A DNA stretch of 64,000 nucleotides from Thiotrichaceae bacterium. GTDB taxonomy: Bacteria; Pseudomonadota; Gammaproteobacteria; Beggiatoales; Beggiatoaceae. This document shows positions 13,822 through 60,145 of this stretch, one piece after another. Where the stretch lies: assembly GCA_011391085.1 (NCBI GenBank), contig JAABRD010000007.1, positions 62,001 to 126,000 of the forward strand. The letters are read 5' to 3'. How positions within the stretch are numbered: position 1 is the first letter of the stretch; every line of letters starts with the position of its first letter. The translations under genes and the position numbers were made by a program. The notes under the pieces are model-generated. The model searched no databases. It was not told where the DNA came from and was given only the letters and a program-made list of their open reading frames with translations.

Positions 13822-13986
13822 GGTGGAGTAGAGGCTAACGCCGGTGGACTAGAGGCTTCCGCCGGTGGACTAGAGGCTTTAGGTGGACTAGAGGCTTTAG
13901 CCGGTGGGCAAGCCCGTGATTTCAATTTTGTTCCGTCCCCCTCCGGCGGAAGCCTCTAGTCCACCGGCGGAAGCCTCTACTCCACT
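13822..13986. repeat. REP-like block of the TAGAGGCTTTAGCCGG family
   Basis: Several direct and inverted copies of GGTGGACTAGAGGCTT-type units with a central segment GGGCAAGCCCGTGATTTC and a mirrored right half (GCCTCTAGTCCACC). The block can fold into a long hairpin and separates two kinase genes transcribed in the same direction. The same family occurs at 21852-22317, 51569-51772, 53849-54002 (inside a gene), 56091-56176 and 59871-60145. Confidence 0.8.
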
Positions 13987-21851: not shown

Positions 21852-22317
21852 CACGAGGGTGTGGAGGCTTTAACTGCAATGCCATTCAGTTAATAAATAC
21901 CCCCGAAATTAACCGACAGGTGGACTAGAGGCTTCAGCCGCAATGCCATTAAGTTAAGGTACGCTGGAGTGGAGGCTTTAGCCGGCCTTCGGTAGGCGCC
22001 CCGCAATTTCAGTGGGGGGCGATGCCTACTGCCGGCCAGCTAAAGCCTCAATGCCATTAAGTTAAGGTACGCTGGAGTGGAGGCTTTAGCCGGCTGGCCG
22101 TAGGCACCCCGCAATTTTAGTGGGGGGTGATGCCCACGGCCGGCCGGCTAAAGCCTCCACTCCACCGGAATTTTTCTTAACTTAATGGCATTGCGGCTAA
22201 AGCCTCCACTCCAACGGGGGTTCCCTTAACTTAATGGCAGTGAGGCTTCAGTCGGAGGGGGACGGAACAGAATTGAAATCACGGGCTTGCCCACCGGCTA
22301 AAGCCTCTAGTCCACCG
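21852..22317. repeat. Large compound REP-like block between convergent genes
   Basis: This gene-free stretch of about 570 bases is made almost wholly of repeats. It has multiple copies of AACTTAATGGCATTG in both directions, TGGAGTGGAGGCTTTAGCCGG units, two near-copies of a palindrome with CCCCGCAATTT and AGTGGGGGG centres, and a right end with GGGCTTGCCCACCGGC. The copies are arranged as nested inverted repeats and could fold into cruciforms. No protein or RNA gene is visible. Confidence 0.8.
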
Positions 22318-36842: not shown

Positions 36843-37013
36843 GACGGTGGACTAGAGGCCTCCGCCGCAATGCCATTAAGTTAAGGAATTCACGTCTAAA
36901 GTAGGGTGGATTAAGCGAAGCGTATCCACCAGAGTTTCGAAAACGGTGGATACGCTTCGCTTAATCCACCCTACCTTAACTTAATGGCATTGCGGCTAAA
37001 GCCTCCAGTCCCG
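36843..37013. repeat. Three nested inverted repeats (REP family) upstream of mfd
   Basis: An inner pair of exact 30-base arms (36901-36930 and 36945-36974; begins GTAGGGTGGATTAAGCGAAG) is enclosed by a middle pair (CCGCAATGCCATTAAGTTAA, 36865-36886, and its complement 36973-36994) and an outer pair (GGACTAGAGGCCTCC and GCCTCCAGTCC). The structure is a repeat inserted into the middle of another palindrome. The rest of the 372-base gap between the divergent SulP and mfd genes has no recognisable feature. Confidence 0.85.
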
Positions 37014-43138: not shown

Positions 43139-43184
43139 CAAAGCTACGCTTTGGACTCCTGGATACCCCCCCTATCCCCCCCGT

Positions 43185-43320
43185 ACACGGGGGGGAAATC
43201 ACTCCCTCCCCCTGTGTACGGGGGGAAATCACTCCCTCCCCCTGTGTACGGGAGGAAATCACTCCCTCCCCCTGTGTACGGGAGGAAATCACTCCCTCCC
43301 CGCGTGCGGGGAGGGTTGGG
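43185..43320. repeat. 30-bp minisatellite
   Basis: The unit ACTCCCTCCCCCTGTGTACG plus GGGNGGAAATC repeats with a period of exactly 30 bases (starts at 43201, 43231, 43261, 43291) and decays at both ends. Because 30 is a multiple of 3, it creates spurious repetitive open frames on both strands. The 290-base gap between comEC and the ferredoxin-like gene also holds a CAAAGCTACGCTTTG palindrome at 43138-43153 and nothing else recognisable. Confidence 0.85.
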
Positions 43321-44876: not shown

Positions 44877-45458
44877 CTACCCATGATTCATTGTAAACAC
44901 TTTCCCCGGTGTCACGCAGAAATTCATTTTCAAGTCTGTTTCATGGACCTCTTCAATCTTTTCTACCGGTTCAAAGAAAGAGAGACCCACCTTAATAATT
45001 CTCGGCTTACATTTTTGTAAAAATCGATCATAACAACCTTTCCCATAACCCACTCGATGTCCTTGTTGATCAAAGGCCAGCAGAGGAAGTAATATCATAT
45101 CAATTTGATCATCAGCAAAGGGTTGGGCATTCACAGGTTCAGGCACGCCCCAACGATTTTCTAGCAACGTGGTGTTCTTCTCCAACCGATAACTTTGCAT
45201 CGTACCATCCGACAAATTCGTTTTAGAAGTGACCAGAGTTAGATGCGGATAGTCTTCCCAAATCTGCTGAATGATCAACCAAGTATTCACCTCGTTTTGT
45301 TTTAAAATGGGGAGGTAAATATGCAGGCTAGAAATGTCAAGCAATGAGAACGTCTTGAAAAAAGAGTCACGGATGGCGAAACTAAATGCTTCTATCGTGT
45401 CAGGCGATAATTGTTTGCGTTGGGTGAGAAACTGTGAACGGAGTTGAGTTTTTTGCAT
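44877..45458 (-). CDS. 5-formyltetrahydrofolate cyclo-ligase family protein
   Basis: A 193-residue protein of one-carbon metabolism that converts 5-formyl-THF to methenyl-THF with ATP. The C-terminal motif LLPLLAFDQQGHRVGYGKGCYDRFL region and the start RSQFLTQRKQLS are typical of the family (E. coli YgfA/Fau). In many proteobacteria it lies near zapA and 6S RNA; neither is seen here. The stop codon is 16 bases from a MITE-like element and the start region abuts the 112-bp tandem array. Confidence 0.93.
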   Translation of the reverse strand: MQKTQLRSQFLTQRKQLSPDTIEAFSFAIRDSFFKTFSLLDISSLHIYLPILKQNEVNTWLIIQQIWEDYPHLTLVTSKTNLSDGTMQSYRLEKNTTLLENRWGVPEPVNAQPFADDQIDMILLPLLAFDQQGHRVGYGKGCYDRFLQKCKPRIIKVGLSFFEPVEKIEEVHETDLKMNFCVTPGKVFTMNHG

Positions 45459-45486
45459 GGAAATGGAGTCTGTTTATAGTCGTTAT

Positions 45487-46183
45487 CGTGCGGTTTCTGT
45501 TAGTCTTGAACTGTGATTTATATGATTAAATGAGGGCTATGAAAGGAGGCTTGACTAATCAGAGTCCATCTGAAAATCATTCTAACTGGGTGAAATATCG
45601 TGCGGTTTCTTTTAGTCTTGAACTGTGATTGATATGATTAAATGAGGGCTCTGAAAGGAGGCTTGACGAATCAGAGTCCATCTGAAAATCATTCTAACTG
45701 GGTGAAATATCGTGCGGTTTCTTTTAGTCTTGAACTGTGATTGATATGATTAAATGAGGGCTCTGAAAGGTGGCTTGACGAATCAGAGTCCATCTGAAAA
45801 TCATTCTAACTGGGTGAAATATCGTGCGGTTTCTTTTAGTCTTGAACTGTGATTGATATGATTAAATGAGGTCTATGAAAGGTGGCTTGACGAATCAGAG
45901 TCCATCTGAAAATCATTCTAACTGGTTGAAATATCGTGCAGTTTCTTTTAGTCTTGAACTGTGATTGATATGATTAAATGAGGGCTATGAAAGGTGGCTT
46001 GACTAATCAGAGTCCATCTGAAAATCATTCTAACTGGTTGAAATATCGTGCGGTTTCTTTTAGTCTTGAACTGTGATTGATATGATTAAATGAGGGCTAT
46101 GAAAGGTGGCTTGACTAATCAGAGTCCATCTGAAAATCATTCTAATCATAGTTCAGACAGTACACCTACATTGCCTCACTACC
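45487..46183 (+). repeat. Tandem array of six 112-bp units derived from the GGTAGTGA element
   Basis: The unit beginning CGTGCGGTTTCT starts at 45487, 45599, 45711, 45823, 45935 and 46047, a constant period of 112 bases, with only a few substitutions between copies (GGAGGC/GGTGGC, ACTAATC/ACGAATC, GGGTG/GGTTG). After the sixth unit the sequence changes to TTCAGACAGT and the right end ACATTGCCTCACTACC (to 46183) of the element family; the left end is missing. The unit is the core of the single-copy elements at 40641, 49377 and 61187. It fills most of the 831-base gap before the antiporter gene. Confidence 0.92.
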
Positions 46184-46289
46184 AAAAATCTTGACAACTT
46201 AAATTGAACAAAATATCATACTTCTGCGCAAACAGCCTATATCATTTGCGTAAATCCAAACCACCATCCACTTTCAAACGTAATTCAAT

Positions 46290-49376: not shown

Positions 49377-49541
49377 GGTAGTGATGCAATCTGGGTGAAA
49401 TATCGTGCGGTTTCTCTTCGGTCTTGAACTCTGATTGAAATGATTAAATGAGGGCTATGAAAGGAGGCTTGACGAATCAGAGTCCATCTGAAAATCATTC
49501 TAATCAGAGTTCAGACAGAGAACTCACATTGCCTCACTACC
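49377..49541 (+). repeat. Complete single-copy GGTAGTGA element (165 bp)
   Basis: Ends GGTAGTGATGCAATCTGGGT and ACTCACATTGCCTCACTACC with one copy of the 112-bp core between them. It serves as the reference for the tandem array at 45487-46183 and for the shorter copy at 61187-61323. Confidence 0.88.
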
Positions 49542-51568: not shown

Positions 51569-51772
51569 GGTGGACTAGAGGCTTCCGCCGGCCGGCCGTG
51601 AAGACGCCAAAACTGGTGGACTAGAGGCTTTAACTGGTGGACTAGAGGCTTTAGCCGGTGGCGTGGTTCTGTGATTTCAATTCTGTTCAGCCCCCACCGG
51701 CTGAAGCCTCTAGTCCACCAGAACGTTGACTTCATCTGAAGCCTCTAGTCCACCAGAACGTTGACTTCATCT
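51569..51772. repeat. REP-like block of the TAGAGGCTTTAGCCGG family
   Basis: Direct and inverted copies of GGTGGACTAGAGGCTT with a centre ATTTCAATTCTGTTCAGCCC; the right side has a duplicated GAACGTTGACTTCATCT unit. It lies between convergent genes. Confidence 0.8.
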
Positions 51773-51776
51773 CACC

Positions 51777-54700
51777 TTACATCTTTTCCACTAACTGTTG
51801 TCTCAAATAACGATTCTGCAAATGGACTCGCACTCGTGCTAATACCTCCTCTTGCTGAAACGGCTTGGTGATATAGTCCACGGCCCCCACCTGAAACCCT
51901 CTGATTTTGTCGTTTGTGTCAGACAATGCGGTAATAAATATCACCGGAATCTCCTTAGTGCGACGATTTTCCTTCAGGCGTCGACAGACTTCCAAACCAT
52001 TCATGCCAGGCATCATGATGTCTAACAAAATGAGATGAACTTGTTGATGTTCTAACAACGTCAAAGCACTTTCCCCACTTTTGGCAACAAGGACTCTAAA
52101 TTGGTGACTTTTTAATATTTCAAACAAAAATCGTAGATTCTCAGGTACATCATCGACAATCAAAATCGTAACCGATGAGGGTATGGTCATCTCTAATATT
52201 TGCCGACATCGTTCTAAATAAATTTGGGTCACTTCATCGGTGGGATGGGTTGCCAAGATCTGTTCAAAAAAAGGCTGGGCATCTGCAAATTCGCCTGAAT
52301 GATACAATACAAAACTGACTTCAAAATCATCTCGTGTTTGGTCTTTCAAAGCAATTTTCTCGTTGGAATCGGCATCATACACTTCATAAATAGTGACCAC
52401 TTCTGACTTGCCTTTGACTTTGACGGCATCTATCACACGAATATGATACTGTAATGGGTCCACTAATTTGAGATAAGTTTGTTGCGTAATCAACAGTGGT
52501 GTAAAGTAAATTTTGGTCAAATCTTGAATACGTGAGGCTAAATTAACCGCGTCCGAGATGACGGTACCTTCCATACGGTTCTCACCGCCGACGGTGCCTA
52601 ACATCAACCGGCCGGTATTCAAACCAATACCAATTTGCAGAGGAGAGAAGGAAGCCTTCTGTAGTAACTGATTATATTTAGTTAGCTGTTTTAACATAGC
52701 AATCGCACAATTGACCGCATCCTCTGCACAAGTGGGAAACACTGCCATAATGGCATCACCAATATATTTGTCAATAACGCCATGATGTTCCAAAATGATA
52801 GGTTCCATCTGCCCCAAATAGCTATTGATAAAAGCAAACGTGTCCGCTGGTGTCAGGTCTTCTGACAAGGCTGTGAACCCCCGAATATCGGCAAACAAAA
52901 CCGTCATTTCTTGTTCTATCTGGTCGCCCAATTGAATCTCCACAATGCTGTCTTTCCCTAAGAGTTGCAAAAATTCGCGTGGAATAAAGCGTTGATAGGC
53001 TTGGTTAAGTTGAAACAATTCTTGGGTAAAATGTTGCCGTTCAGTTTCCACTCGTTGATGTTCTGTCATATCTTGAAGCGACACCAGTGCGTAAATAATT
53101 TGGCCTTGTTCATCTAGTATTGACGTACTACGAGTTTCCAGCGGGATGGATTGATGATCGGGGCGGCGAATTTCGACATCGTTAGCCACCGTACCTTCGC
53201 CCCGTAAGGCCCGCGCACAAGGCAATTGTTGAGGAGGATACAGTTCCTCGGTGCCCGCTAAATACAGTTGATAAACTCTGGGCAATTGGTCCAGCGTCAC
53301 ATCAGGTAGCACTCCTTTTCCAAATAAGTGTTGGGCGAGATAGTTGAAATAATAAGGTTGCCCCGTGGGTTCAAACACCGCTACCCCAATGGGCATTGCT
53401 TCCAAAAATTGTCGCAACCGTTGTTCATTGGCTTTGGCGACCCGTAATGCTTCGGCTTGCAACTCTTTGAGATGTAAATGAGTATGCAGACGGGTCAGTA
53501 ATTCCTCCTTCACGACCGGTTTGGTGAGACAATCATTGGCACCATATTGTAACCCCATGATGATTTCAGACACTTGCCGTTTAGACGTTAGCAAGAGAAT
53601 CGGCAGTTCATGGACTCCCCAGGTTTTACGAATGCGTTGCAAGACTTCATAACCTGTCATTTGCGGCATCATTACATCAAGCAAAATGGCATCTGGTGTG
53701 AAGCCTTCTGCAAGAATTTTTAACGCCAGGGGTCCAGAAGTGGCTTGCTTAACTTGATAGTGTTGTTGAGATAAATAATTATGCAAGAGTTGCAACACTA
53801 CGAGGTCATCATCGACTATCAGAATTTGAAAGAATTTGGTGCCCCCCTCACCGGCTAAAGCCTCTAGTCCGGGGTCGTTGGCTAAAGCCTCTAGTTCAGT
53901 CTCCATCGGGACTAGAGGCTTTAGCCGGTGATCGATTTGAACCGGGACTAGAGGCTTTAGCCGGTGATCGATTTCAACCGGGACTAGAGGCTTTAGCCGG
54001 TGAGAAGCAACCAGGTACTCCAGTCTCATTTCTGTATAAATCGGCACCGTGAAAATAAAACTAGAACCCATTCCTATGGTTGACTCCACCCGAATGTGGC
54101 CACCATGTAATTCAATTAGCTGTTTGGTGATGGCCAACCCCAACCCCAATCCCCCGTCTGGCTGACTACCAACTTGACTAAAGGAGTCAAACAGGTGGTT
54201 CAAGCGATGCGGTGGAATGCCTATGCCAGTGTCTGACACAGTGATTTCTATAAAATTATCCACGACATGGGCTGACATTCGGACGGTGCCACGATTGGTA
54301 AATTTAATGGCATTTTCAATCAGATGATGAAAAACTTGTTGCAAACGTTGTTCGTCCGCTAGGGCTAACGGTAATTGTGAATCAACGGCGTTAATAAGTT
54401 GTAGAGATTTATTCGCGACCAGTGGTTGACTTAAAGTGATAACGAGGTCCACCACTTCGCGAATGCCGACATTGGTCAAGTCTAACACCAGCGTTTGATT
54501 TTTCAACATGGAAAAATCTAACAGGTCATTGACCAATGTGGTCAGTTGTTTGCCACTGCGCACAATCATGGCCAGGTGGGCTTTAACGGTGTTAGACAAC
54601 TCGCCGGCGGAACCTTCTATTAAAGACTCCGCTAAACCCTTGATGCCGCTTAAAGGAGTTTGCAACTCCCTGGAAGTATTGGCCAAAAATTCATCTTTTA

Positions 54701-56057
54701 ACTGATCCAAGCGTTGCAATTCTTGATTTTTCAGTGCCAGCGTCTCAAACGATTCTCGTAATTGTTTTGCCATCTGATGAAATGACAGGGCCAGTTCTCC
54801 AATTTCGTCATTCCGTTGCGTGGGTAACTCTTGCAATTCTTGACCATTGAAGAGACCATGTGTGATTTGTTCGGAGACTCGAACGAAGTCACACAATGGT
54901 TTGGCGACTTGTTTATGCAACACCAGGAAGAGAAAAATAATTTCGATGACCAACGAAGTGAAACTAACCAAAAAAATGAACAGTGCTATCTTCCAGGCAA
55001 ACTTGGTTAGCAACGATTTGGGATAAACGGTCACTAAAAACCAATTGGGTCCTGCAATTCTAGTCACGGCTAGAAATTCGTCATGTTGACGATTTTCGAT
55101 CACCTGCGTGGTAGATGAACTCTCTTTGACAAGACGAAACATGTTGATGAGATGCGGATTACCAGACTGGGCAATCTCAAATTTGCCATTTTGTTCTTGA
55201 ATTTCTTTTAGGTAATGGGGATGCACAATCAGCCGTCCGTCTTCTCGAAACAGGAGGTTGTAGGTGCCTTCTAAATGACTGTTAATCACGTTCTCCAGCA
55301 AATCGGTCAGCAACACGTCATTGGCAACACTGGCCAAATAAGTCCCCTTCCAATCGATAGGGGTGATGCAGGAAACCATCCACTGTTTAGCCACGTCATC
55401 ATAATACAAACCGGTCCAAACGGTTTTTCTCTCAGGATTATGTTCAGGTTTCCCCAAGTAGTGCCATTCTTGTTCAGCCATCTGATAATCCGCGGGGGCC
55501 TCCAATTCCCAGGCGGTGCCAGGCCAATAAGTGACATCGGCGTTGTCGGGCAGAACAACATATAAATTGGGAAAGTCATTATGCCAGGCGGGTCCGTAAG
55601 ATTTTAAGATTTCGTAACCAATGATCAAGCGGCGCCGCAGTTCAGGAGTGATGGTCAAGTGTTGACCCACAAATCCTAACATCCCTTCAATTCGAAAACC
55701 GTTCGGTTGGGGCAAACCATGAAAATACTCGGGCCGCATTCTGGTGGTACCGTCTGCAAGTAGCTGAAATAATTGATTAAATTCAGTGATGGGGTCATGA
55801 TCTGCCATTGCTTGATAGCGTTTCAAAAATTCTTGTTTGAAGTTCGCCTGATTACTTTCTGCTAGTTTGAATAATTGACTGTCAGTTTGACCGCGTTGAA
55901 CAATATATTTTCCCAATTGTTCAATAATCTGTTCTTCCAAATTAGACATCGTATGCCAATAACTGAGAAAGGTCACGCCAAGAATCACCAGGGCAATTCT
56001 CAATCCCATTTGGAGAAGCGTTTTGTAAGTCAGAGAGTTGTTTGAGAGTTGAAACAT
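51777..56057 (-). CDS. Receptor with degenerate histidine kinase, receivers, PAS and class III nucleotide cyclase
   Basis: A 1426-residue membrane receptor: helix 1 (about 14-34), Cache-type sensor (40-350), helix 2 (354-382), HAMP (384-436), a HisKA-like region in which the H box reads TSRELQTPL, so Arg463 stands where the phospho-accepting His should be, and an HATPase with intact N and G boxes (ENAIKF, DTGIGIP, GGLGLGLAI). A linker (686-735) made of translated REP repeats follows, then receiver 1 (Asp794), a PAS-like domain (880-1000), a class III cyclase domain (1050-1215) with metal Asp1057 and Asp1101, Lys1097, Asn1172 and Arg1176 all present, and a C-terminal receiver (Asp1346). Output is therefore cAMP or cGMP and probably not autophosphorylation. 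The sensor resembles that of the kinase at 26966-29860. Confidence 0.92.
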   Translation of the reverse strand: MFQLSNNSLTYKTLLQMGLRIALVILGVTFLSYWHTMSNLEEQIIEQLGKYIVQRGQTDSQLFKLAESNQANFKQEFLKRYQAMADHDPITEFNQLFQLLADGTTRMRPEYFHGLPQPNGFRIEGMLGFVGQHLTITPELRRRLIIGYEILKSYGPAWHNDFPNLYVVLPDNADVTYWPGTAWELEAPADYQMAEQEWHYLGKPEHNPERKTVWTGLYYDDVAKQWMVSCITPIDWKGTYLASVANDVLLTDLLENVINSHLEGTYNLLFREDGRLIVHPHYLKEIQEQNGKFEIAQSGNPHLINMFRLVKESSSTTQVIENRQHDEFLAVTRIAGPNWFLVTVYPKSLLTKFAWKIALFIFLVSFTSLVIEIIFLFLVLHKQVAKPLCDFVRVSEQITHGLFNGQELQELPTQRNDEIGELALSFHQMAKQLRESFETLALKNQELQRLDQLKDEFLANTSRELQTPLSGIKGLAESLIEGSAGELSNTVKAHLAMIVRSGKQLTTLVNDLLDFSMLKNQTLVLDLTNVGIREVVDLVITLSQPLVANKSLQLINAVDSQLPLALADEQRLQQVFHHLIENAIKFTNRGTVRMSAHVVDNFIEITVSDTGIGIPPHRLNHLFDSFSQVGSQPDGGLGLGLAITKQLIELHGGHIRVESTIGMGSSFIFTVPIYTEMRLEYLVASHRLKPLVPVEIDHRLKPLVPVQIDHRLKPLVPMETELEALANDPGLEALAGEGGTKFFQILIVDDDLVVLQLLHNYLSQQHYQVKQATSGPLALKILAEGFTPDAILLDVMMPQMTGYEVLQRIRKTWGVHELPILLLTSKRQVSEIIMGLQYGANDCLTKPVVKEELLTRLHTHLHLKELQAEALRVAKANEQRLRQFLEAMPIGVAVFEPTGQPYYFNYLAQHLFGKGVLPDVTLDQLPRVYQLYLAGTEELYPPQQLPCARALRGEGTVANDVEIRRPDHQSIPLETRSTSILDEQGQIIYALVSLQDMTEHQRVETERQHFTQELFQLNQAYQRFIPREFLQLLGKDSIVEIQLGDQIEQEMTVLFADIRGFTALSEDLTPADTFAFINSYLGQMEPIILEHHGVIDKYIGDAIMAVFPTCAEDAVNCAIAMLKQLTKYNQLLQKASFSPLQIGIGLNTGRLMLGTVGGENRMEGTVISDAVNLASRIQDLTKIYFTPLLITQQTYLKLVDPLQYHIRVIDAVKVKGKSEVVTIYEVYDADSNEKIALKDQTRDDFEVSFVLYHSGEFADAQPFFEQILATHPTDEVTQIYLERCRQILEMTIPSSVTILIVDDVPENLRFLFEILKSHQFRVLVAKSGESALTLLEHQQVHLILLDIMMPGMNGLEVCRRLKENRRTKEIPVIFITALSDTNDKIRGFQVGAVDYITKPFQQEEVLARVRVHLQNRYLRQQLVEKM
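53849..54002. repeat. REP-like block inside a coding region, translated
   Basis: Inverted and direct copies of GACTAGAGGCTTTAGCCGG lie inside the cyclase gene. On the coding strand the 36-bp direct unit gives the 12-residue repeat HRLKPLVPVEID (residues 686-697, 698-709, 710 onward), and the inverted copies give LEALA. The frame is kept throughout. The block sits in the linker between the ATPase domain and the first receiver. Confidence 0.93.
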
Positions 56058-56090: not shown

Positions 56091-56176
56091 GGCGGACTAG
56101 AGGCTTTAGCCGGTGAGAGATACCGCCATCTTTCGGTTGTGTGCCAACCCCCTCCGGCTAACGCCTCTAGTCCACC
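56091..56176. repeat. REP-like hairpin upstream of the cyclase receptor
   Basis: GCGGACTAGAGGCTTTAGCC and a mirrored right arm (GGCTAACGCCTCTAGTCC) around about 45 bases. It is 34 bases before the receptor start codon on the minus strand. Confidence 0.78.
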
Positions 56177-59870: not shown

Positions 59871-60145
59871 GGTGGACTAGAGGTTTTAGCCGCACTGTCA
59901 TTAAGTTAAGAAAAACAGCCCCTGACATCAATCGACAGGTGGACTAGAGGCTTTAGCCGGAGGGTGCAGAACAGATATTAAGATCACGGTGCCCCCACCG
60001 GCTGAAGCCTCCAGTCCACCGCTGTTTTATATTGTTTCGCCACCTCAATTCCTTTATTTAATGATGGCATTGAAGCTTTAGCCGGTGGAGGGTAGAAGAT
60101 AATTGAAATCGCGATGCGTCCTCCGGCTAAAGCCTCTAGTCCACC
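59871..60145. repeat. REP-like block upstream of nifL
   Basis: Inverted and direct copies of GGTGGACTAGAGGCTT and GGCTAAAGCCTCTAGTCC with a CATTAAGTTAAG arm fill the 328-base gap between nifL and gph. No promoter, NifL PAS1 remnant or open frame could be recognised in it. Confidence 0.8.

Follow-up and report, generated by a model that had tools for sequence, protein, structure and literature searches.

The host gene and its in-frame array

The window, by which we mean the whole 64,000-nucleotide stretch of DNA that was analyzed, carries on its minus strand a gene for a hybrid sensor protein in which Pfam recognizes, in order, a sensor region (a weak dCache_1 match), HAMP, HisKA, HATPase_c, receiver, PAS-like, nucleotide cyclase, and receiver domains. 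Between the end of HATPase_c (residues 568-673) and the first receiver, the gene contains an array of REP-like palindromic units, roughly 20 bp each with the core GACTAGAGGCTTTAGCC, which is read through in the frame of the gene. The features of the locus are as follows.

51777 to 56057, minus strand: host gene, 1426 aa (open reading frame; Pfam; alignment with relatives)
54669 to 54671, minus strand: AGG codon for Arg 463 at the position of the HisKA phospho-acceptor His (sequence; alignment)
53847 to 54004, minus strand: in-frame REP array, 158 nt, read as HRLKPLVPVEIDHRLKPLVPVQIDHRLKPLVPMETELEALANDPGLEALAGE (repeats, inverted arms, frame table)
53907 to 54014, plus strand: three 36-nt direct units, mRNA reading HRLKPLVP...
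53853 to 53896, minus strand: two inverted copies, 27 nt apart, mRNA reading LEALA

A preliminary description of this DNA had proposed that the palindrome lies within a coding region, in the linker between the ATPase and receiver domains. Both points held, given that the reading frame is open, that a coding signal in this frame is seen before and after the array, and that the array is bordered by the HATPase_c and receiver matches. The bounds first given, 53849-54002, located the array correctly; its extent proved slightly wider, at 53847-54004. Five copies, each with 0-1 mismatches to GACTAGAGGCTTTAGCC, make up the block (53853-53869 and 53880-53896 on the minus strand; 53910-53926, 53946-53962, and 53982-53998 on the plus strand), and the identities of the three direct units are 100/97/72%. 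As had been noted from the outset, the direct copies are read as HRLKPLVPVEID-type repeats, of which there are three, and the inverted copies as LEALA, of which there are two; together they amount to about 52 aa, and translation through the array would be expected to give the tryptic peptide LKPLVPVEIDHR. Per-codon scores of +0.18 and +0.20 in the flanks fall to -0.12 in the array, where codon usage is foreign. The spacer-containing word CCGGTGATCGATTT has no other occurrence in the genome. The inverted symmetry of the block, also described earlier, is evident in its 27-nt terminal arms (53847-53873 and 53978-54004), which are 96% complementary, and the strong mRNA hairpin then suggested agrees with a predicted folding energy of -105.6 kcal/mol (z = -9.5), including a 27-bp near-perfect stem.

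The sequence of the host protein makes its function as a kinase doubtful, because the phospho-acceptor His of the HisKA domain is replaced by Arg. The motif at this site is SRELQTPL vs. SHELRTPL, and the His is found in all aligned relatives. Furthermore, 11 of 95 positions that are invariant in the other sequences are altered in the host, the most among the 14 sequences aligned. Both receivers and the cyclase have strong Pfam scores, and the ~690 codons downstream of the array are open, with host-like codon usage. A structure model generated from the 14-sequence alignment (mean pLDDT 72.9, pTM 0.50) predicts that the HATPase-receiver linker is disordered, with a pLDDT of about 33 between better-folded domains.

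A palindromic family around the gene and across the genome

The preliminary description had the same palindrome recurring at six or more other places, and we located six further clusters of the GACTAGAGGCTTTAGCC family in the window, where there are 29 matches at ≤3 mismatches against 0.05 expected.

13847 to 13982: cluster, order +++--
21923 to 22312: cluster, order +++---
36850 to 37010: copy pair, order +-
51573 to 51750: intergenic cluster, order +++--, directly past the 3′ end of the host kinase gene
56095 to 56172: intergenic element, order +- (the usual form), directly before the start of the host kinase gene
59875 to 60141: cluster, order ++--

The host gene is thus flanked on both sides (51573-51750 and 56095-56172) by the family that is also found inside it. 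A second repeated segment, with a sequence close to GCAATGCCATTAAGTTAAGG, adjoins several family copies (window positions 21919, 36846, and 59871). Two other repeats were seen in the window: a 112-nt tandem repeat of about six copies at 45372-46231, with single relatives at 49385 and 61194, and a 30-nt tandem array, GGGGGGAAATCACTCCCTCCCCCTGTGTAC, at 43160-43306.

Across the whole genome (5.77 Mb in 140 contigs), a search with an 18-nt core at ≤2 mismatches returned ~2,255 copies (1123 + 1132 matches). The inverted pair is the usual form of the family, with 121 simple +- clusters vs. nine -+, and its arms are often tandemly multiplied; the in-gene array has the rare order, --+++, in which the inverted copies lead. 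Ahead of the palindrome, 602 genome copies bear a tag that is mostly CTAG (285), GTGG (117), or GTAG (69). With a 16-nt core at ≤1 mismatch, 226 copies were found in a congener and 331 in one other genus of the same bacterial family, in which 21 of 75 copies have the GTAG tag, and about 90 other relatives have zero or a handful.

No RAYT gene was found beside the GACTAGAGGCTTTAGCC family: the sole Y1_Tnp match in the genome has no adjoining family copies, nor have seven Y1_Tnp matches in two relatives. A distant RAYT could conceivably mobilize the family in trans. The genome's own Y1_Tnp match is flanked by another family, GTAGGGTGGATTAAGCG; arrays of another GTAG REP, GTAGGGTGGATTAAGCGAAGCG, surround the RAYT-like gene at G000:C75:34158-34598.

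Copies within genes and the reading-frame filter

Copies within genes were surveyed in 1.18 of the 5.77 Mb, with genes called by a simple codon-score method rather than by a full gene finder. Just 29 of 610 sampled copies fell in predicted genes, although genes make up 79% of the DNA, and several of the 29 are N-terminal, in roughly the first 40 residues of their ORFs, and probably reflect wrong start codons. Three cases are solid and internal, namely the sensor kinase, a Ser/Thr kinase, and an NRPS. Three further candidates were set aside: 'RLKPLV' at residue 626 of a protein on contig C85 is a single loose match in an ordinary-looking conserved stretch and was put down to chance; 'EALAAGD' at C22:75571 is a single decayed match and was left out of the count; and where contigs of the congener have single copies spaced at 1-2 kb, these lie outside genes.

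The absence of stop codons from the array had initially been explained by a 36-bp unit that is divisible by 3. Such a unit does keep the frame, but it does not account for the missing stops, as the other two frames on the same strand contain them: one of the three frames is open through the block, and it is the one in use. Comparable intergenic arrays seldom have an open frame; among clusters of at least five copies, three of 32 have some open frame, and about 4% of frames are open. The frame of the array has therefore passed a filter, and its stop-free reading is not a consequence of unit length alone. Within genes, each of the seven tandem spacings measures either 27 or 36 nt; outside genes, 74 of 166 spacings of ≤60 nt (45%) are multiples of 3. 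This excess is modest, because the seven spacings come from only four arrays.

The Ser/Thr kinase (contig C47), which also has a sulfatase-modifying-factor domain, contains four copies, read as PAEASSPTA and PAKASSPTA. Its orthologue in the congener has two copies with the same 3′ junction; the two proteins are 78-82% identical and their DNA is 82% identical, with no differences between the aligned repeat cores. A homologue from the genus with 331 copies (about 50% identical) is without the repeat. The simplest reading of these sequences is that the insertion would predate the split of the two species and that the copy number has changed since. The NRPS, of 4114 aa, is encoded on the same contig as the window and upstream of it (G000:C118:33988-46332). 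It has three in-frame sites of the GACTAGAGGCTTTAGCC family, read as LEALAG, as GEVGLEASA (twice), and as PAEASSP plus LEALAG, in loops that differ in length from one homologous domain to another. Across the genic cases, three readings of the unit are used. A second, unrelated in-frame palindromic element, PLTLGPSPYGRGEYGETSGFLPTPVGRGAGGEG, was seen in a 1815-aa kinase/AAA/GAF/HK protein (G000:C85:7426-12873, minus strand); its 14-mers occur about 65 times in the 1.18 Mb.

The linker in related kinases

Related kinases are encoded in genomes that include Thioploca, Halobeggiatoa, Marithrix, and Thiotrichaceae. In the host, 73 aa link HATPase and receiver; in the matches aligned from relatives, the length of this linker ranges over 32-82 aa. 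We looked for orthologues with and without the repeat, as had been suggested, and the homologous kinases that we found and aligned all have a linker without it. The presence of the repeat in distant orthologues from genomes without the family would have contradicted the preliminary description; none of the relatives examined had it in this linker, and the family is almost absent outside two genera. In the congener, the best homologue of the host shares just about 50% identity and lies among genes that do not correspond to those of the window. It is therefore unlikely to be the orthologue, and an exact empty site cannot be read from it.

Discussion

We favour the view, to which we assign a probability of about 0.8, that an otherwise intergenic REP-like element entered the disordered linker of a kinase, multiplied there, and survived because both frame and linker were tolerant. 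The palindromic element would have inserted into the HATPase-receiver linker of the hybrid sensor, and tandem duplication of a REP core with 12 nt of flank would then have multiplied the arms into 36-nt units. The array may have survived because the frame that it entered was free of stops, the direct copies are spaced at multiples of 3, and the linker can accommodate changes in length and sequence; its presence would have been near-neutral. One observation goes against a simple insertion, in that the usual +- dimer does not directly yield a --+++ block.

An origin of this kind is also compatible with a gene in decay, whose kinase would already have been inactive and whose array and hairpin would now sit in a poorly expressed pseudogene-to-be; what differs is that the protein would no longer work. 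Arg in place of the His kept by all aligned relatives, together with the largest number of altered invariant positions, points in this direction. Long RNA stems can be cut by RNase III, and the near-perfect stem in the array mRNA is a candidate target. Nevertheless, the long open frame downstream retains host-like codon usage, the receivers and cyclase still score strongly, and degenerate kinase cores in multidomain proteins can retain other functions. The host kinase may be decaying or repurposed, and we regard outright loss of a working protein as possible but the less likely outcome.

Selection for the repeat itself, with REP-coded disordered linkers of variable length tuning the coupling of domains and copy-number changes providing useful variation, seems unlikely to us. 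Support for the idea comes from the Ser/Thr kinase, where the linker repeat is kept in two species with four vs. two copies and the cores are identical amid diverged flanking DNA, and from the location of the sites in linkers and loops of multidomain enzymes. However, there is just one conserved orthologous pair, homogenization by slippage accounts equally well for the identical cores, and three unrelated peptides (RLKPLVP, LEALAG, and PAKASSPT) speak against a function of any specific sequence. It would similarly be a long shot to regard the family as steadily supplying signalling and NRPS proteins with disordered linkers of variable length, as domesticated repeats that are kept and tuned through changes in copy number and are more than just tolerated. 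Short periodicity in linkers is common by itself, so that an ancestral protein repeat might merely resemble the intergenic family; the identity to the family at the DNA level, which extends to inverted copies coding for a different peptide, and the absence of the repeat from relatives make this highly improbable.

The preliminary description had compared the array with the Rickettsia palindromic elements, which are described as about 150-bp elements found in frame in genes of unrelated function (PMC10969869). The comparison is sound as an analogy: in both, a palindromic element lies in frame in genes without loss of frame. The array here consists of tandem and inverted units of roughly 20 bp, and the segment that it adds is at most a candidate for a new functional one, as the host protein lacks the phospho-acceptor His. 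REPs of other families, too, are known in frame: those with GTAG and CGTC tags are documented inside ORFs, and their clusters code for 43-82 aa in Thauera and R. conorii (PMC3733652, BMC Genomics 2013). These are likewise short palindromes in high copy number that lie chiefly between genes, a smaller share being in frame within them (PMC3733652). They apparently belong to a different sequence family, and the tag here is mostly CTAG; their hosts are mainly repair genes, whereas here the array-bearing genes encode a sensor kinase, a Ser/Thr kinase, and an NRPS, and one case here is kept in a congener with an altered copy number. In REPINs, too, REP units occur chiefly as inverted pairs (PMC3116915), but REPINs have a cognate RAYT, and here no RAYT gene adjoins the family and the order of the in-gene block is the opposite one. 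The passages searched in two genome papers on large sulfur bacteria mention MITEs or repetitive elements, and not the GACTAGAGGCTTTAGCC family or its translation.

Translated in-frame REPs are therefore already known, and what is new here is the well-supported GACTAGAGGCTTTAGCC family, the best new point being the shared Ser/Thr kinase case with variable copy number in two species. With this finding, translated palindromic repeats are known also from a group that has large sulfur bacteria among its members; named relatives are Thioploca, Halobeggiatoa, and Marithrix. Because the copies of a single family can be tallied in intergenic DNA, in coding DNA, and in a congener, the filters that act on frame, spacing, and site become measurable.
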